Positions 2,794-20,668 of a stretch of DNA of 20,668 bases are shown in pieces. Source of the stretch: a virus; the IMG/VR virus record IMGVR_UViG_2124908038_000026, positions 1 to 20,668 of that record; one strand, given 5' to 3'. A model generated the notes under the pieces. The model did not search any database and was not told the DNA's origin. It was given only the letters and a program-made list of their open reading frames with translations. The position numbers and the translations under genes were made by a program. Numbering within the stretch: the stretch's first letter is position 1; every line of letters starts with the position of its first letter.

Positions 2794-2991
2794 ATGATGT
2801 GCTTTTTTAAAAAAAAGAAAGAACCGTTCGAGCCGAAGGTTAAATACTGTACCGAGTGTGGCGGCTTATTCAAAGTCTATAAAATGACAAAGGTAGAGGT
2901 TATAAGAAGGCCAGCAAAAGTTCCAAGAGGTCACTGGTTTGAGCCCTACCTGGGACACGATTATTATTGCAAACATTGTAAAAAGACTTGA
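2794..2991 (+). CDS. Small zinc-ribbon protein (65 aa)
   Basis: Two adjacent ATGs (2794, 2797) follow AAGGAG and AGAGG; 2797 is better spaced from AGAGG, so the start may be one codon later. C19/C22 (YCTECGG) and C59/C62 (YYCKHCKKT) form a four-cysteine ribbon around a basic central stretch (KVEVIRRPAKVPRG). Role unknown; such proteins often bind nucleic acid or a host enzyme. The TGA at the end overlaps a possible -35 box of the next promoter. Confidence 0.7.
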   Translation: MMCFFKKKKEPFEPKVKYCTECGGLFKVYKMTKVEVIRRPAKVPRGHWFEPYLGHDYYCKHCKKT

Positions 2992-3016
2992 TTTTCTATT
3001 TTAAAGGTGATATGGT
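2988..3016 (+). promoter_or_regulatory. Possible promoter for the structured RNA at 3025
   Basis: TTGATT (2988-2993), 17 bases, then TATGGT (3011-3016): four of six matches in each box. The expected start near 3023 is exactly at the edge of the first helix of the RNA element. Weak on its own; position gives it weight. Confidence 0.35.
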
Positions 3017-3024
3017 AACTTCTA

Positions 3025-3127
3025 GGCGTGAGGTAAAAATGTTAACCATTACAATTAAAGCCATTGAGAGAGCCGTTCTGGAGTCTGACGATCCTTCGTC
3101 ACCTCACGCCACAGGACGGCTTTTTCT
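3025..3127 (+). ncRNA. Structured RNA with two crossing helices and U-tail (sRNA or attenuator)
   Basis: GGCGTGAGGT (3025-3034) pairs perfectly with ACCTCACGCC (3101-3110). AGCCGTTCTG (3071-3080) pairs with CAGGACGGCT (3112-3121) over ten positions, one a G-U. A third hairpin, TGACGA-TCCT-TCGTCA (3086-3101), stacks next to the first helix. The first two helices cross, so they form a pseudoknot or are mutually exclusive. The second is followed at once by TTTTTCTTT, like an intrinsic terminator. Two readings fit: a discrete RNA of about 100 nt from the promoter at 2988, or an attenuator in front of the replication gene. The first helix would also hide the GTGAGG SD of the 34-codon ORF at 3039. 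I know no named RNA family with this layout. Confidence 0.55.
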
Positions 3128-3143
3128 TTGGCGAAGAAGATAA
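3039..3143 (+). CDS. Possible leader peptide inside the structured RNA (34 aa)
   Basis: ATG at 3039 follows GTGAGG, an SD used by several genes here, and the frame ends with TAA one base before the ATG of the replication gene. The product begins MLTITIKAIERAVLESDD and ends RLFLWRRR. Most of it overlaps the paired RNA segments, so translation would disturb the helices and translational coupling to the next gene is possible. The ORF may instead be incidental to the RNA. Confidence 0.35.
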   Translation: MLTITIKAIERAVLESDDPSSPHATGRLFLWRRR

Positions 3144-3144
3144 T

Positions 3145-3879
3145 ATGAGTAAAGACCCGGCGGTATTATTTTATTATGAAGCATTTAGTAATGGAACCCA
3201 GTTTATGACTGATGACGAGGCGGGAAAATATATTAGAATACTTTGTTATCAGTTCGACAAAGGCCATTTATCTAAAGAGCTAGTGCTTCGCATTAGCAAA
3301 GCTAGTGCTTTTGAGAAAGTCCCGAAAAATATTGTAGATAAATTAAAAATTGATGAAAACGGATTATATTTTAATGAGAGAGCAGATATTGAAAAAGAAA
3401 AGCGTTTAAAATTCACAGCTTCTAGAAAAGCTAATGCAAGCACTAGCTCAGCTAGTGGCGAGCATGACATAAATAAAGATATAAATAGAAATATAAGTGA
3501 ATTATTATTAAATGAAATACTAAAAAGAAAGCCTGATATTAAAAAACCAGACTTAGATAAATGGGATGGAGATGTAGATTTAATGATTAGGATTGATAAC
3601 CGTAAACCAGAAGAAATAAAAAAAGTTATTATCTGGTGTCAACAGGATACATTTTGGAGAAATAATATTTTAAGCACATCTAAACTAAGGAAACAATTTG
3701 ACCAACTTTCATTAAAAATGAAGGAGAATAATAATGGAAATAAAAAATATACTACCACCAGAGAATCCGGCGGAAGAGCAGGGATACCGGAATATAAGGG
3801 AGAGCCGAAGCCAAGCGATGAAGAAATTAGACGAAATAAACAGGAATTGGAAAAACTCACAAAAAAAGCCTTCGGTTAG
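3145..3879 (+). CDS. Phage replication-initiation-type protein (244 aa)
   Basis: The N-terminus, MSKDPAVLFYYEAFSNGTQF, followed by MTDDEAGKYIRILCYQFDKG, matches the winged-helix type domain found at the start of many phage replisome organiser proteins (YdaU/DUF1376-like). A flexible Ser/Asn-rich linker follows (about 95-115), and the C-terminal part contains WCQQDTFWRNNILSTSKLRKQF, the W-x-x-N-I-x-S-x-x-KLR-x-x-F pattern typical of the same group. It probably binds the origin and recruits the host helicase. I start at 3145 because the frame upstream is the RNA element; the SD is GAAGAAG, moderate. The last 146 bases overlap the next gene in another frame. Confidence 0.75.
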   Translation: MSKDPAVLFYYEAFSNGTQFMTDDEAGKYIRILCYQFDKGHLSKELVLRISKASAFEKVPKNIVDKLKIDENGLYFNERADIEKEKRLKFTASRKANASTSSASGEHDINKDINRNISELLLNEILKRKPDIKKPDLDKWDGDVDLMIRIDNRKPEEIKKVIIWCQQDTFWRNNILSTSKLRKQFDQLSLKMKENNNGNKKYTTTRESGGRAGIPEYKGEPKPSDEEIRRNKQELEKLTKKAFG

Positions 3880-3970
3880 AATCACTTTGAGAATGGATGG
3901 AAAGACTTATTTATACGGTACTGAATTGGCAAGAGAACTTATTAAAAATGGAAAGGCGATGCTGGCATGA
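3734..3970 (+). CDS. Small phage protein overlapping the replication gene (78 aa)
   Basis: ATG at 3734 has a clear SD (AAGGAG, seven bases away) although it lies 146 bases inside the replication gene, in the +1 frame. The first 48 residues are therefore double coded. They are charged and Pro/Asn-rich (MEIKNILPPENPAEEQ...). The unique C-terminal part, RITLRMDGKTYLYGTELARE then LIKNGKAMLA, looks like a small strand-helix unit. Later ATGs (3818, 3892) lack an SD. Function unknown. The TGA overlaps the next ATG. Confidence 0.65.
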   Translation: MEIKNILPPENPAEEQGYRNIRESRSQAMKKLDEINRNWKNSQKKPSVRITLRMDGKTYLYGTELARELIKNGKAMLA

Positions 3971-4149
3971 CCAAAATATGTGAAACCTGCAAGAAACCTT
4001 ACGAAGTTGATAAGCATAATCCCCGGCAGAAACATTGCACAGCTTGCGCTAATGGACGGCGTAACGGAAAATTAAGAAGAGGCGCGAAGTGGGATAAGCC
4101 GGAAGGTTTCGACAGACCGATTGACAAAATAGAAGAGTTACCCTTTTGA
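3967..4149 (+). CDS. Small zinc-finger protein (60 aa)
   Basis: ATGA overlap with the preceding gene. C5/C8 (CETCKKPYEV) and C24/C27 (HCTAC) form a four-cysteine site, with H23 beside it; the rest is basic (GRRNGKLRRGAKWDKPEG) and ends in an acidic tail IEELPF. This pattern is common among short phage proteins that bind nucleic acids or partner proteins. No specific role can be given. Confidence 0.75.
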   Translation: MTKICETCKKPYEVDKHNPRQKHCTACANGRRNGKLRRGAKWDKPEGFDRPIDKIEELPF

Positions 4150-4155
4150 GGCCAT

Positions 4156-4239
4156 ATGAGCGAAGTTAAGATAATTAATGTCGATTGCATGATCGCAAAA
4201 ATAACACTTGACACACAATCACCATTTAAAGTAATATAG
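4156..4239 (+). pseudogene. Short ORF resembling a methyltransferase N-terminus (27 aa)
   Basis: The ORF begins MSEVKIINVDCMIAKI and stops after 27 codons. Its first 14 residues line up with the start of the methyltransferase at 4820 (MSDVRIYNQCCLEA): M, S, V, I, N, C and A are shared and E/D, K/R are conservative. The following residues do not match. The simplest reading is the stub of a methyltransferase gene, left when an HNH gene entered or a paralogue decayed. A real short gene is also possible. It has no strong SD. Confidence 0.4.
4208..4237 (+). promoter_or_regulatory. Possible promoter for the HNH gene
   Basis: TTGACA (4208-4213), an 18-base spacer and TAATAT (4232-4237). The predicted start near 4244 lies just before the SD AAGGGAG (4244-4250) of the HNH gene. 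A private promoter would fit a mobile homing-type gene inside an operon. Confidence 0.4.
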
Positions 4240-4256
4240 GCATAAGGGAGATATTT

Positions 4257-4823
4257 ATGCCAACTGGAATATATGACGTATCAAAAAGAAGGAAAACAAA
4301 ACACAAATTAAAAAGTCGTGTTATTTGTAAAAAATGCTGTACCGTTTTTTATCCTGATTTAAGTATTAAGCGAGGGAATCGTCCTTGTCCTAATTGTGGA
4401 GTAATTATAGACATAAGAGATAAAAAGGGATGGTATCAGGACTATTGCAAAAAACATCCTGAAAAAGCAACCTCAAGAAAAAACGCAATGATTGAGTGGG
4501 AAAAAGAACATAGCAGAGAAAGAGCAAAAAAAGGCAGAGGCGTAATAAGGAAAGTTATTTTCAATATTATATCAAACAATAATCCGGTGTGTGAAAATTG
4601 CGGGTGTGACGATTTACGTTTATTAGAGATAAATCATAAACACGGTGGTGGAACAAAAGAGTCTCAAAAAGGTAAAAATAGTAATCGTTTTTACTTAGAT
4701 ATTTATAAGGGTAGAAGAAAAACAGACGACCTTAACTTGCTTTGTAAGGTTTGCAATGCCCTTCATTATTTAGAATTAAAAAACGGTAAACTTCCCTTTG
4801 TTATTCAATGGAATAAAAAATGA
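4257..4823 (+). CDS. HNH endonuclease with N-terminal zinc ribbon (188 aa), homing-type
   Basis: Two metal sites are visible. The N-terminal ribbon has C24/C27 and C44/C47 (VICKKCC, RPCPNCG). The C-terminal HNH unit has C112/C115 (VCENCG), the catalytic H127-x-H129 (LEINHKHGGG), N160 and C163/C166/H170 (LNLLCKVCNALH). A basic helix lies between them (EWEKEHSRERAKKGRG), suited to DNA contact. Free-standing HNH genes of this build are often homing endonucleases of phages. It lies between a methyltransferase-like stub and an intact methyltransferase and has its own possible promoter, which supports insertion. The stop overlaps the methyltransferase ATG by four bases. Confidence 0.85.
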   Translation: MPTGIYDVSKRRKTKHKLKSRVICKKCCTVFYPDLSIKRGNRPCPNCGVIIDIRDKKGWYQDYCKKHPEKATSRKNAMIEWEKEHSRERAKKGRGVIRKVIFNIISNNNPVCENCGCDDLRLLEINHKHGGGTKESQKGKNSNRFYLDIYKGRRKTDDLNLLCKVCNALHYLELKNGKLPFVIQWNKK

Positions 4824-5476
4824 GTGATGTGAGGATTTACAATCAGTGTTGTCTCGAAGCCATGTCTCAGATGAAAGACAAAGAGTACGATTTGGCTATT
4901 TGCGATCCGCCGTATTTTTCGGGGCCCGACAAGCTTGGATATTTTGGCGCAGAATATACAAAAACAAAAGTTAAAAGGCAGAACTATAAAATATTAGGGG
5001 ACTGGACAGTTCCAACACAAAGTTATTTTAATGAGTTATTGCGCGTGAGTAAAAATCAAATTATATGGGGTTTTAATTATTTTAAAATTATGAATTTAGG
5101 AACAGGGAGGATTATTTGGGATAAGAAAAACGATGAATCAATGTTCTCAAAGTGCGAAATTGCTTATAATTCTACACGCGAACACGTTTCAATATTTAGA
5201 TTCGCATGGAATGGATTTATACAAGAGAATATGAAAAATAAGGAATTACGCACACATCCCACCCAGAAGCCAGTTGCCCTTTATCAATGGCTATTAAAGA
5301 ACTACGCAAAGCAAGGTGATAGGATTCTTGATACTCACGGCGGCAGTTGTTCATCGGCTATCGCTTGCGACATTATGGGATTTTCAGCAGACATATTTGA
5401 AATCGACAAGGACTACTACGAAGCGGCACTTGACAGATTTAACCGGCACAAACAACAGCAGGTAATGAATTTTTAA
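4820..5476 (+). CDS. DNA methyltransferase, beta-class, N6-adenine or N4-cytosine (218 aa)
   Basis: It transfers a methyl group from S-adenosylmethionine to an exocyclic amine of adenine or cytosine. The catalytic motif IV is DPPY at residues 29-32 near the N-terminus. THPTQKP (145-151) precedes the AdoMet-binding motif I, DTHGGSCSSA (171-180), and an acidic EID (194-196) follows. Motif IV before motif I places it in the permuted beta group. The usual phage form is a solitary enzyme used to evade host restriction; no cognate restriction gene is seen, although an HNH gene lies directly upstream. Length fits the family. Confidence 0.9.
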   Translation: MSDVRIYNQCCLEAMSQMKDKEYDLAICDPPYFSGPDKLGYFGAEYTKTKVKRQNYKILGDWTVPTQSYFNELLRVSKNQIIWGFNYFKIMNLGTGRIIWDKKNDESMFSKCEIAYNSTREHVSIFRFAWNGFIQENMKNKELRTHPTQKPVALYQWLLKNYAKQGDRILDTHGGSCSSAIACDIMGFSADIFEIDKDYYEAALDRFNRHKQQQVMNF

Positions 5477-5486
5477 GGAGGGCACA

Positions 5487-5840
5487 ATGAGTACAGATTT
5501 AATTATAGCAATGTGGTTTTTTGTATGTTGGGTAATTCTGATGGTATTTTTGGATTATCTTATTGGTTGGAGGGTAATCAAAAGAGTCGAAGATTATGTG
5601 AATAAAGGCAAAAAGGACGTGCTGGATTCGATTAAGGAAGTCTGGCCTCTAAAAATGGCGGAGGTTGAGGCGCGAATTGTGACAATCACAGATATAGCCA
5701 ACACCAACATAGATAAAACCATAAATGAAGCCAACGCCAACATAGAAACGGCAAATAAAATTATACAACAAGCAAACACAGTTAAAGCCAAGCCAGCCTC
5801 ACTCAAACTGACAGTCGATTTCAAGGGGATGAAGAAATGA
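5487..5840 (+). CDS. Membrane-anchored coiled-coil protein (117 aa)
   Basis: SD AAGGAGG. Residues about 5-27 form one hydrophobic span ([20 protein letters not shown]), followed by a long amphipathic region (30-105) with repeated N/T/A/I pattern ([20 protein letters not shown]) typical of a coiled coil. The protein would sit in the inner membrane with a cytoplasmic or periplasmic rod. No enzyme motif. The build is shared by many phage accessory membrane proteins. Confidence 0.7.
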
Positions 5841-5986
5841 AAATATCTTTAATGTTTGCCTGGTATGATTTTTGGATTGGTTTCTTTTGGGATAAGCAGA
5901 AAAAGATTTTATATTTATTACCGTTACCAATGTTTGGAATAAAAATTGAACAAGTGATTAAGGAGAAAAAGACATGGCAACCATAG
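5837..5986 (+). CDS. Conserved small phage protein, FAWYDFWIG type (49 aa)
   Basis: ATGA overlap with the preceding gene. The product starts [19 protein letters not shown], then [18 protein letters not shown]. The order FAWYDxWxGxFWD, basic stretch, LYxLPxPxxG is a pattern I recognise from small proteins in many phage genomes; no function has been assigned that I know of. The aromatic N-terminus could be membrane-associated. It overlaps the next gene by 13 bases. Confidence 0.75.
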
Positions 5987-6420
5987 ACCCATTTACCGAC
6001 AAGGCATATACCATTTCACTAATTGATTGCAACGCTACATTTATTTGTGCGCATACTTTATTTGAACAGAGGAAAGAGGCCTCGAGGGTGTATGTTATAG
6101 GCAAAGACCCTGAGGTAAAAAAACTTATTGAAGTTTTAGATAGTAGAATCAGGGAAGCGTTTTTGTTGGATGATATCGACAAGAAGATAACAGAAATACC
6201 TGCTAATGATAAAACATCTTTACAAGAACTAACCGAAAATTTTCTAAAAGGTAAAAACGAAAATATACCAATAGGCGGAAACATAGAAAAATACCTTGTT
6301 GATTGCTGTAATGAAGATTGCGGCTGGGCGGGATATTCAACTGAATGTGTATGTTTTAAACATGACAGAGATAAACTTTTTTGTCCTGAGTGCCATGAAG
6401 TTGTGGAGCCAGTACAATGA
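5974..6420 (+). CDS. Phage protein with C-terminal zinc-ribbon-like region (148 aa)
   Basis: SD AAGGAG nine bases before the ATG. The first 100 residues form an alpha/beta-looking region of no recognised family ([20 protein letters not shown]...). The last 40 contain clustered cysteines: C111/C112/C116, C125/C127 and C137/C140 ([14 protein letters not shown]), consistent with one or two zinc sites. Part of the rightward operon; function unknown. Confidence 0.75.
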
Positions 6421-6578
6421 AAAATCATATTTTCGTTATTGAGTGGAAAGTTGCCGATCGTAAATATATCCCCATTGATTATGAAAATGAGAGGCGCAGG
6501 GCAGTTAAAGTTATGCGAACGTATAAACGGCTAAACACAAAACATATTTACCGAATAAAAAAATATGTGAGTGAATAA
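6417..6578 (+). CDS. Small basic phage protein (53 aa)
   Basis: ATGA overlap at the start and TAATG overlap at the end. The product begins [20 protein letters not shown] and continues with a basic helix ENERRRAVKVMRTYKRLN; it has two beta-like strands then a helix. No recognised family. Confidence 0.65.
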   Translation: MKNHIFVIEWKVADRKYIPIDYENERRRAVKVMRTYKRLNTKHIYRIKKYVSE

Positions 6579-6757
6579 TGAACAAGATAGGAATCAGCAA
6601 AATAGACGAAAGACTGCCGCTAGAAAAGATAAATCGCAACAAGGTGGAGGGCTTTGTAAAGTATTTCCGCCAGCGACAGGGGCATTTAAAGAAGTTTTTA
6701 AGTGCGAGTTCAGCGAGGTCAACGCCAAACAGGAATTTAACAAAATACAGGAACTGA
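6578..6757 (+). CDS. Small protein in a two-frame region (59 aa)
   Basis: ATG at 6578 overlaps the previous TAA (TAATG). The product begins MNKIGISKIDERLPLEKINR; the LPLEKINRN stretch resembles the start of ParB-type domains, but the rest does not continue that match. A second frame (GTG 6571 to 6771, 66 aa) is also open across the same bases. I prefer 6578 for its ATG and coupling geometry; neither start has a good SD. Confidence 0.45.
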   Translation: MNKIGISKIDERLPLEKINRNKVEGFVKYFRQRQGHLKKFLSASSARSTPNRNLTKYRN

Positions 6758-6779
6758 TTTGGAATGGGTAAGGAGAATT

Positions 6780-7001
6780 ATGAGTAGAATCTGGAGTCCC
6801 AAAGAAGAAGAGATATTAAAAAAACTTCATTCTAAAGGTTATTCTATAAAAAAAATAACCACAGTTTTGAAATCAAGAAATTATGAAGGAATAAGAAAAC
6901 ATGGCATGTCTTTAGGTCTTGAATGGCATGAATATAAAATAAATATTGATTTTGAGGAGTTTAAAAAATTAATGAAATCATCGAAAGAGAGGACAATATG
7001 A
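6780..7001 (+). CDS. Small DNA-binding-type protein, SANT/Myb-like (73 aa)
   Basis: ATG at 6780 has SD AAGGAG at the right spacing, so I reject the in-frame ATG at 6759. The protein starts MSRIWSPKEEEILKKLHSKG, continues YSIKKITTVLKSRNYEGIRK and then HGMSLGL. This W-x-x-EEE-x-L, I-x-x-x-L-x-x-R, I-x-x-H-x-x-x-LGL order is the signature of small phage helix-turn-helix proteins of the SANT/Myb kind. It probably binds DNA. The TGA overlaps the next ATG. Confidence 0.7.
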   Translation: MSRIWSPKEEEILKKLHSKGYSIKKITTVLKSRNYEGIRKHGMSLGLEWHEYKINIDFEEFKKLMKSSKERTI

Positions 7002-7789
7002 TCTGGGCTATTGTTTCAGATGTGCAGGTAGGACACGAAGCGGCTTTGTGGCCTAAAAATTATGAACCGGAAGATTATAAAACTTTTCACACCCCTAATG
7101 TTTATCAAAAAATACTTTTAGATTATTGGAAAGATTTTTGGACGTATAGGGAAACAAAAGAAGCCGAAGTTATTTTAAACCTTGCAGAATCCATTGAGGG
7201 CAACAATAGAAAAGAATACGGAAGGAATTTAGTCACGCCAGACTTGGGCTATCAAAAGGACGGGTTTGTAGAATTGCTCCAGCCCTATATTCAAGGAAGA
7301 AAATATTTTGGCCTTAATGGTTCTGCTTATCATACATCACTTGATTATAATGTTGAAGAAGCAATCTCTAAAGATAAAAAAATAAAAGGAACCTTTTGCG
7401 GGGATATTCTTAATGCCAAATTAAAAAAAACAGGGCATACCGTTTGGGCTACACACAAGGCTGGAGATGCAATGCTGTATAAATCAACCATGCTTGACCG
7501 TAATAGTCTTTTCTTTTCAGCAATTAAAAGCAAACTACAGGAAGACCCAGATATAATAATATATGGTCATCATCACCAGCATTTTAGAGTTGATACAGCA
7601 ACAAGAATAAACCTAATCGCTCCGACATGGAAATTCTGGCATCCAATTAAAGGCTCTGCCAAATTCCCATATACGCAGCCCACAATCGGCGGCCTACTAA
7701 TTAAATTTCCAAACAACAGAGGGCAAATTGAAGTGATTAGAAAATTTTATCCGCTTGAACATATTTATTCAGCGTTAAGGGAAATATAG
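6998..7789 (+). CDS. Calcineurin-like metallophosphoesterase (263 aa)
   Basis: A two-metal phosphoesterase fold. The first metal motif is SDVQVGH (D8, H13), where DxH is more usual. The second is degenerate: NLAESIEGN at 61-69 stands where GDxxxxG is expected. LNGSAYH (106-112) corresponds to GNHD/E, with THK at 152-154, and GHHHQHF (190-196) is the clear GHxH metal motif. Many phage members have similarly altered motifs, and substrates (nucleotides, DNA ends, cyclic nucleotides) are unknown. It may act in nucleic-acid processing or against host defence signals; this is inference. The last gene before a 110-bp gap. Confidence 0.8.
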   Translation: MIWAIVSDVQVGHEAALWPKNYEPEDYKTFHTPNVYQKILLDYWKDFWTYRETKEAEVILNLAESIEGNNRKEYGRNLVTPDLGYQKDGFVELLQPYIQGRKYFGLNGSAYHTSLDYNVEEAISKDKKIKGTFCGDILNAKLKKTGHTVWATHKAGDAMLYKSTMLDRNSLFFSAIKSKLQEDPDIIIYGHHHQHFRVDTATRINLIAPTWKFWHPIKGSAKFPYTQPTIGGLLIKFPNNRGQIEVIRKFYPLEHIYSALREI

Positions 7790-7814
7790 TCAAGACTATT
7801 TTGCAGTTGACTAA

Positions 7815-7863
7815 AAAGTTGACAACTTTACGGCAAACCGATTTCAGAACTTGTAAACAAGTT
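7815..7863. promoter_or_regulatory. Two palindromes in an intergenic gap
   Basis: AAAGTTG-A-CAACTTT (7815-7829) and AACTTGT-AA-ACAAGTT (7848-7863) are both perfect. They lie in the only gap over 100 bp within the right operon and share the AACTT core. They could be protein binding sites or short RNA hairpins. The first contains TTGACA, but I see no good -10 box at a proper distance. Confidence 0.4.
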
Positions 7864-7901
7864 GTAATTACAAAGAATGTTAATTATCGTGAGGTTTGGA
7901 A

Positions 7902-8078
7902 ATGCAATATAAAATTACATATAGGATTTGCGGAAAAGAATATAAAATTAGAGTGCAGGCTAAATCACATGATCATGCTGAGGATAAGGTTCGTGCCTCT
8001 TTAACGATTATCAGATGTGACGCGGAAAACGACAAAACCCTTGATGAAATTTTAGATTTATTTCGAATGAAGAAATGA
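7902..8078 (+). CDS. Small phage protein of unknown function (58 aa)
   Basis: ATG at 7902 follows GAGG at seven bases; an in-frame TTG six bases upstream is less likely. The product begins MQYKITYRICGKEYKIRVQA and contains SHDHAEDKVRASL, then ends EILDLFRMKK: two strands followed by a helix and another strand-helix. No family recognised. Confidence 0.7.
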   Translation: MQYKITYRICGKEYKIRVQAKSHDHAEDKVRASLTIIRCDAENDKTLDEILDLFRMKK

Positions 8079-8094
8079 AAAGGAGAGTAATGAA

Positions 8095-8478
8095 ATGAAA
8101 AAATTAAGAATTTATGTCGCAGCACCTTACAATCCAGTGGGTTGTTCTACGCATGGAGCGGCAAAAGTAGCACAGCAAAATGTTGACAGGGTAATTGAGG
8201 CGGCAAACGCAATCCACGACAAAGGGCATTACGCTTTCGTTCCTCATTTATCGCATTATCTACATATTCATTATTCGTGCAAGGTTGACAGAGGTGTTTG
8301 GTATTATGACTATGATAATACTTTTCTTGACTTGTGGGCAAACGCTTTTCTTTATCTCATGCCGAGTTATGGCGCAGGTCTGGAACTGAAAAGATTTCAG
8401 GCTAAAAGGATATTCACCGAACAATCATATCCAATGCCTATATTTAAAAGCACTGATGAAATACCGGAGGCAAAATGA
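8095..8478 (+). CDS. Nucleoside 2-deoxyribosyltransferase-like / DUF4406-like protein (127 aa)
   Basis: SD AAGGAGAG. The N-terminal strand and loop RIYVAAPYNP (5-14), N29 and R32 in the following helix, GHYAFVPHLSHY (44-55) and PSYGAGLELKRF (90-101) match the nucleoside 2-deoxyribosyltransferase fold, in which the S-x-G-x-x-x-E segment carries the catalytic Glu (here E97). Such enzymes exchange bases on deoxynucleosides or hydrolyse nucleotides. In phages they probably serve nucleotide salvage or modified-base metabolism. The region between has an Asp/Tyr-rich insert (WYYDYDNTFLD). The stop overlaps the next ATG. Confidence 0.75.
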   Translation: MKKLRIYVAAPYNPVGCSTHGAAKVAQQNVDRVIEAANAIHDKGHYAFVPHLSHYLHIHYSCKVDRGVWYYDYDNTFLDLWANAFLYLMPSYGAGLELKRFQAKRIFTEQSYPMPIFKSTDEIPEAK

Positions 8479-8687
8479 GTGAACAAGAAGTAATCAATTT
8501 TTCTGAATTGTCAGAAGCAGAGCAGCAAATTTGGGTTGATATCAACCTCCATGAGGAGTTTAGGCATTATGAAGATATTCGGCGCTTGCAAAAGGAAAGG
8601 GATTTTGTCGAAAAGGAATTTGGCATAAAAGCGCGTAATATCTATGTGAATGCCTGGATAGAAATACTTAACGAAAAAAATCCATAA
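8475..8687 (+). CDS. Small acidic helical protein (70 aa)
   Basis: ATGA overlap and SD CGGAGG. Nearly all predicted helix and acidic: MSEQEVINFSELSEAEQQIW, then INLHEEFRHYEDIRRLQKER, ending WIEILNEKNP. No cysteine or known motif. Function unknown. Confidence 0.7.
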   Translation: MSEQEVINFSELSEAEQQIWVDINLHEEFRHYEDIRRLQKERDFVEKEFGIKARNIYVNAWIEILNEKNP

Positions 8688-20503: not shown

Positions 20504-20668
20504 ATGGCAAAGTATTTAGATAACACAGCGGTAAAGGATGTAGGGTTAACAGCAATTAAGAATGGGGCAATCCGAGCAGTTTTCTGCTCCGCTGCTCCGG
20601 CTAACTACGCAGGAGTAGGCGCCGTTGCTTTAATGACTGCAACTATTTCTTCAACAGATTTGACTATT
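20504..20668 (+). CDS. Start of a further head/tail gene, truncated by the window end
   Basis: SD AAGGAG eight bases before the ATG. The first 55 codons are visible: MAKYLDNTAVKDVGLTAIKN, then GAIRAVFCSAAPANYAGVGA. The Ala/Gly-rich, weakly charged sequence and position fit a structural or head-completion gene, but the family cannot be named from this part. Confidence 0.65.
   Translation, partial: MAKYLDNTAVKDVGLTAIKNGAIRAVFCSAAPANYAGVGAVALMTATISSTDLTI

Follow-up and report, generated by a model that had tools for sequence, protein, structure and literature searches.

In leader-peptide transcription attenuators, a leader ORF and a hairpin with its U tract stand before the controlled gene, and in the RepY-RepZ system of IncB and IncI plasmids a leader peptide is coupled to the replication gene, with a pseudoknot in the leader. 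In the C4 RNA of P4, two hairpins stand inside an outer stem (arms from 8501 and 8435), and just 5' of the 3' arm of this stem lies the segment TTCTCACCCCC, which is complementary to GGGCGTGAGAA in the upstream leader. Gifsy-1 orf45 possesses two starts in one frame, its stop overlaps the gene that follows, and the 3' end of orf45 pairs with the leader RNA (PMC4825925).

The element described here lies immediately 5' of a DnaD-like replication gene in a 20.7 kb fragment of a podovirus-like phage (portal of PHROG 332, terminase and major head protein), and this whole stretch of DNA is called the window below. The same architecture, written in different letters, occurs 5' of replication genes in three other lineages (L048, L144 and L145), so that the element looks like a real control RNA, and apparently an uncatalogued one. 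On the strength of these comparisons we consider it very probable that it encodes a genuine and conserved pseudoknotted leader RNA.

The element and its setting in the window

Relatives of the window's portal, about 60% identical, were found in metagenomic viral contigs, and neither portal nor replication-protein relatives led to a host. The element sits in a rightward row of genes headed by a Cro/C1-type HTH gene (1847-2038). The replication gene that it precedes matches PHROG 2514 (E=2e-28), 4880 and 391, and DUF1376 weakly. Inside this gene are iteron-like repeats, AGCTAGTGCTT, at 3278-3288 and 3300-3310, with inverted or partial copies up to 3464, and this region (3277-3464) is likely a replication origin, as in lambda-O-type origins. 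The parts of the locus, all on the plus strand, are the following.

2988-3016, plus strand: putative sigma-70 promoter, TTGATT-17-TATGGT (8 of 12 matches), with a predicted RNA start at about 3023
3025-3034, plus strand: helix 1, 5' strand, GGCGTGAGGT, read directly, with counterparts in L048, L144 and L145
3039-3143, plus strand: leader ORF of 34 codons, from ATG at 3039 to TAA at 3141-3143, its frame passing through the terminator
3071-3080, plus strand: helix 2, 5' strand (terminator stem), AGCCGTTCTG, from direct reading, fold ranking and alignment
3086-3101, plus strand: inner hairpin TGACGA-TCCT-TCGTCA in the helix-2 loop, from folding
3101-3110, plus strand: helix 1, 3' strand, ACCTCACGCC, inside the helix-2 loop and one base before the helix-2 3' arm
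3112-3121, plus strand: helix 2, 3' strand, CAGGACGGCT, from direct reading and alignment with L048
3121-3129, plus strand: U tract, TTTTTCTTT, with the predicted RNA 3' end at about 3127
3145-3879, plus strand: replication gene, DnaD-like helicase loader or O-like replication initiation protein with a DUF1376-like N-terminus, from PHROG matches

A sequence-only reading of the locus had described two crossing 10-bp helices with a U-tail, and direct reading finds both where they had been placed: helix 1 (3025/3101) has ten perfect pairs, helix 2 (3071/3112) has ten including one G-U, and the U tract follows helix 2. The 6-bp hairpin described between them is also present, but not at full length alongside a complete helix 1, as A3101 is common to both and at most 5+10 or 6+9 pairs can form simultaneously. 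No base belongs to both helix 1 and helix 2, and helix 1 meets competition only from the extension of the inner helix (GAG/CUC). The loop lengths permit both helices; as A3111 is the sole base between the two 3' strands, they would have to be stacked end to end, with the spacer between helix 1 and the stem (36 nt) as the bridge. The helix-2 loop, 31 nt with its nested hairpin, is unusual for an intrinsic terminator. The predicted RNA measures about 105 nt (about 3023 to about 3127). Directly 3' of the U tract stands TTGGCGAAG, and the U run with this tail is common to L048.

The leader ORF bears out the earlier description of 34 codons coupled to the replication gene with a hidden SD: its GAGG SD (3030-3033) falls within helix 1, and a single base separates its stop from the replication gene ATG at 3145. 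The replication gene's own SD region, at about 3134-3140, lies outside both helices. An alternative in-frame start, ATG 3012 (43 codons), was judged less likely because it falls within the putative -10 and upstream of the predicted RNA start. The SD-type string of helix 1, GTGAGGT, recurs at 2333-2342, just 5' of an HNH-like gene at 2344, and is also found on the plus strand at 819-825 (region 816-825).

Weight of the two helices in the window

The helix-2 hairpin is the most stable 67-nt fold of the window, ranking first among all 67-nt windows on both strands, with a z of about -5 to -6 (-5.2 in the four-lineage comparison, in which the terminator hairpins of the three relatives have values of -5.3, -7.1 and -2.7). 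Its stem is stable, GC-rich and immediately followed by the U tract; judged by its sequence, helix 2 is a genuine intrinsic-terminator hairpin. The second most stable plus-strand fold (-29.9 kcal/mol) is found at 20561-20640, near the contig end.

The case for helix 1 cannot be made from the window, which has 2 perfect 10-bp inverted repeats with a loop of 30-120 nt where 3.2 +/- 2.3 are expected in Markov sequence; such repeats being no commoner in 20 kb than chance allows, helix 1 by itself is proof of nothing. Scored against the helix-2 loop at the window spacing it reaches P=0.0003, a value that is post hoc, and 9% of random window stretches give duplex energies as good when compared with the whole loop.

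The same architecture in other lineages

Scanning portal-related contigs for large-loop terminators yielded L048 and L051, and near-identical contigs of the L048 type are L050, L102, L106, L108-L110 and L120. L048 comes from a related podovirus, in which the element stands 5' of an HNH gene and a gene that translates as a probable primase/helicase. In a MAFFT alignment the helix-2 arms of the window and L048 fall in the same columns, each sequence holding a full 10-bp helix 2 at an equal distance from the U tract. Compensatory changes, which the earlier reading had looked for in both helices, are present in helix 2, where 12 of 12 pairs are kept with four changed on both sides and three on one; for helix 1 the result takes another form, the helix being re-formed with different letters in three lineages. 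Sliding the helix-2 partner by 1-3 columns lowers pairing to 28-67%, the observed pairing is equalled in 8 of 500 shuffles (three rows), and the 5' arm can move one column in shorter alignments.

Helix 1 of L048 joins GTGGGAGGCACG (2878-2889) to CGTGCCACTCAC (2968-2979) with 11 of 12 pairs and one A-A mismatch, its last (outer) three pairs competing with helix 2, and covers the SD of the L048 leader ORF. At the geometry set from the window it has P=0.003, or 0.10 with helix 2 kept at its full length. By eye, the leader ORFs of the window and L048 align without gaps over 29 C-terminal residues (K.I..[RK]..[VL]...AT.R.F), which suggests that they are homologous.

L144 and L145 were reached by fetching relatives of the L048 HNH gene and inspecting the DNA upstream.

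L144: helix 1, GGAAGGTTTCACC (2813-2825) with GGTGAACCTTCC (2912-2923); terminator stem 2863-2941
L145: helix 1, GAAGCGACTAA (2860-2870) with TTAGTCGCTTT (2937-2947); terminator 2908-2976

Against dinucleotide shuffles, and with the geometry fixed beforehand from the window (helix 1 ending 26-46 nt before the stem, its partner no more than 13 nt from the 3' arm), helix 1 has P=0.007 in L144 and P=0.005 in L145, with weak scores if the geometry is left free (0.2 and 0.04, respectively). A modest selection factor applies to both P values, as the two were chosen by eye among about nine HNH-relative lineages, others of which are without the element. In L144 the downstream genes translate as an HNH gene, a replication-type gene and a probable DnaB helicase; two frames traverse the terminator, one of them ending on the HNH start codon, and the leader start is uncertain. 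In L145 an HNH gene is followed by a DUF1376-type protein that starts MSKDPAFLFY like the window's replication protein, and the coupled stop is ATGGGTAA. In L145, internal loops interrupt helix 2, a stretch of 11 nt comes after helix 1, and the SD lies outside helix 1 (the host probably makes little use of SDs). The common denominator is therefore not SD masking, but a crossing helix at the 5' end of the RNA. The leader ORF is present and coupled in the window, L048 and L145.

All four lineages thus have the same layout, a helix-1 5' strand, a spacer (44 nt in L048, 37 in L144 and 37 in L145 against 36 in the window), a terminator stem with the helix-1 partner in its loop, and a U tract, in elements that share almost no sequence.

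Promoters and predicted transcripts

The promoter search played no part in picking the L048, L144 and L145 loci and therefore serves as an independent check. The modest promoter proposed earlier, with a start at about 3023 at helix 1, is not significant by itself in the window (8/12, P=0.18) and falls below the promoter scanner's threshold, but its placement recurs. In L144, the start predicted from TTGACA-17-TACAAT (11/12) coincides exactly with helix 1 (P=0.002), and in L048, TTGACA-16-TAGGAT (10/12) puts it 4 nt before helix 1 (P=0.003). L145 has TTG-N20-TACTTTTG, which we take to be a Bacteroidota-type promoter, with the start at helix 1; the same strand has no other match within 6.2 kb, and elsewhere in the record the pattern occurs once in 66,000 strand-nt. 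Predicted starts therefore lie 0-4 nt from helix 1 in all four lineages, with strong promoters in L048 and L144 and a weak one in the window, and the predicted RNAs measure about 105-135 nt. The RNA ends proposed for the window, 3023 and 3127, can be upheld as predicted placements, at the start of helix 1 and the end of the U tract, that recur in relatives with better promoters.

Searches for further members

An Rfam search with the window element gave no match at the gathering score, nor any at E<10 for the window and L048, in agreement with the earlier reading, in which the arrangement was not known from any named family. Neither the element nor the leader ORF, used as a query in sequence searches, had a match in plasmids, phages or viral contigs. 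A covariance search with a model of the window and L048 recovered near-identical L048-type contigs and no wider members, and missed both L144 and L145. One weak match to this model, L134 (E=0.4), was not counted, its crossing helix being of different geometry; on the minus strand at about 1274-1390 (G055) it has a hairpin resembling a terminator, crossed by a 12-bp helix, TATTAAGCAGGT/ACCTGCTTAGTA, with a spacer of about 11 nt, 5' of a small gene, which is possibly a variant or chance.

A motif scan of viral contigs (CAGGNCG, T run, TTGGCGAA) returned, by structure, the L048 group alone, and scans of up to 2.1 Mb with broad descriptors gave too much noise for any member to be claimed. The element is absent at the related HNH/replication loci of L136-L138, L143, L148, L162, L163, L205 and L206, at both HNH loci of phage LS06-2018-MD05 (L208, L209) and from several GenBank phages with related genes. 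In L093 (IMGVR_UViG_3300032799_000074), positions 2867-8616 hold HTH, HNH-like and phosphoesterase-like genes in common with the window (the last at 68%), the replication gene is located elsewhere, and the element is absent. Among the abstracts found in a literature search on this combination of features, no paper obviously describes such an RNA.

A proposed attenuating leader RNA and its alternatives

The elements themselves, their conserved geometry, the covariation, the placement of the promoters and the coupled ORF can be read from the DNA. In the reading that explains them best, to which we give a probability of roughly 0.55, they form a leader RNA, extending from promoter to terminator, that attenuates the phage replication operon. 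Termination, a pseudoknot in the cell, a translation-dependent switch and any action in trans are what we infer from this arrangement. Transcription would start at the helix-1 5' strand, at about 3023, and the nascent RNA would bear the SD and start codon of the 34-codon leader ORF before folding the helix-2 hairpin. By default, transcription would terminate at the U tract near 3127, and in the discrete RNA so released, about 105 nt long, the two helices would form a pseudoknot masking the leader SD. Read-through into the replication gene would need escape from the terminator, most simply by a ribosome initiating on the leader ORF before the helix-1 partner strand exists. As this partner would be transcribed only about 70 nt after the SD, an early ribosome could hold helix 1 open, and on translating the leader it would open both helices, the leader stop bringing it to the replication gene start codon; with late or failed initiation, helix 1 would shut over the SD (in the window and L048) and helix 2 would terminate. 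Such ribosome-dependent escape would tie termination to leader translation through the pseudoknot and keep the replication genes low by default. The terminated RNA would hold both strands of helix 1 and may therefore also pair with new leaders in trans.

The new pseudoknotted small RNA and the replication attenuator that had been offered as alternatives are mutually compatible and not separated by the data, and the helix-2 covariation, the recurring helix 1 and the promoter placement support the proposal as a whole. Several observations weigh against an attenuating leader: there are four lineages in all, and the window promoter is weak; helix 1 of L048 has its A-A mismatch and three outer pairs in competition with helix 2; L145 has internal loops in helix 2 and an SD outside helix 1, and the ORF start of L144 is uncertain; and L143, L148 and several GenBank phages have related genes without the element.

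The element could instead be a trans-acting antisense immunity RNA of the P4 CI/P1 C4 sort, in which the exposed 3' strand of helix 1 would pair with the SD of new leaders and shut off replication of superinfecting or extra genomes. It shares the topology of the P4 C4 RNA, in which the antisense segment adjoins the 3' arm of the stem on its 5' side, the P4 target likewise controls a leader 5' of replication genes, and the target strand covers the SD in the window and L048. We nevertheless think this unlikely, as neither Rfam C4 (RF01695) nor c4-a1b1 gives a match, even at E<10, target and antisense share a single compact RNA in which no separate leader terminator divides them, the antisense segment, if free, would be paired mostly in cis, and the L145 SD is not in helix 1. 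The position of the leader stop at the replication gene start, with a pseudoknot inside the leader, would suit a translational activator like RepY-RepZ, in which leader translation remodels the RNA and exposes the replication gene start; this is improbable given the U-tract terminator after helix 2 in all four lineages and the replication gene's SD region (about 3134-3140), which lies outside both helices, so that nothing needs exposing.

Were the locus just an ordinary intrinsic terminator separating early genes, the pairing of helix 1 would be chance complementarity to an SD. For the window this is tenable, since helix 1 alone is within chance, equal duplex energies occur in 9% of random stretches, and GTGAGGT is also found upstream of another gene (2333-2342), but crossing helices with equal spacing, unrelated sequence and helix-1-aligned promoters in three other lineages make it a rather poor prospect, if marginally better than the activator. 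The adjoining replication gene and the iteron-like repeats inside it could also suggest an element acting as DNA, either an origin or a single-strand priming hairpin; a promoter and a U tract that point the same way in each of the four lineages, with an ORF running through, make this very improbable.

Returning to the attenuating leader, if it is correct, one compact RNA design gates replication of diverse tailed phages, namely a terminator whose loop complements the RNA's own 5' end. The CI/C4 immunity RNAs of enterobacteria would then be linked to a wider group that escapes sequence searches, geometry being all that is kept, further members could be sought by the same recipe (promoter, helix strand, about 37 nt, terminator with the partner in its loop), and there would be a direct route to testing attenuation of replication genes. 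That the element represents a widespread, uncatalogued family of pseudoknot RNAs extending from promoter to terminator, each copy beginning with one strand of the crossing helix and gating phage replication modules across bacterial phyla, as both cis attenuator and trans immunity RNA, is a tentative and somewhat doubtful extension; its breadth is based on the occurrence of both sigma-70-type and Bacteroidota-type promoters among the four lineages.

Comparison with known regulatory RNAs

The strand order of the element, P1-P2-P3-P1'-P2', is that of HDV-like ribozymes. These were ruled out on anatomy, there being 36-44 nt between the P1 and P2 strands, no P4 and no J4/2 (a single base, A3111, stands in the place of the latter), and no Rfam ribozyme matches at E<10, so that the distinction drawn earlier stands. 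As in leader-peptide attenuators, a leader ORF, a hairpin and a U tract precede the gene. Unlike them, the element has no mutually exclusive antiterminator sharing terminator bases (helix 1, which shares no stem base with helix 2, is no classical antiterminator), its second helix crosses, and the ORF continues through the terminator to the next gene. It differs from RepY-RepZ in that a U-tract terminator follows and the downstream SD is unmasked by the helices.

The likeness to P4 CI, P1 C4 and the C4 RNAs of N15 and Gifsy-1 begins with a leader transcript before early or replication genes. Like C4 (RF01695), the element has an outer stem around one or more hairpins and, directly 5' of the 3' arm, an antisense segment complementary to the leader, and as in P4 a small ORF passes through the leader terminator (P4 frame ...APRVFFCVAINATER; APRVFFC). 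The P4 leader segments GGGCGTGAGAA and GAGCGTGAGAA (L124 8671-8409, minus strand) share GCGTGAG with helix 1 of the window, GGCGTGAGGT, probably by coincidence. The controls P4, N15 and Gifsy-1 match Rfam C4 (RF01695) and isrK (RF01394), the latter of which gave no match to the element. In contrast to C4 and isrK, target, antisense and terminator are packed here into one RNA of 105-135 nt, in which the antisense stem doubles as the terminator and no isrK-like terminator separates target from antisense. With this compact organisation and no match to either model, it resembles those RNAs in outline at most; most likely, the element has the topology of the P4 CI and P1 C4 RNAs and belongs to a family other than theirs.
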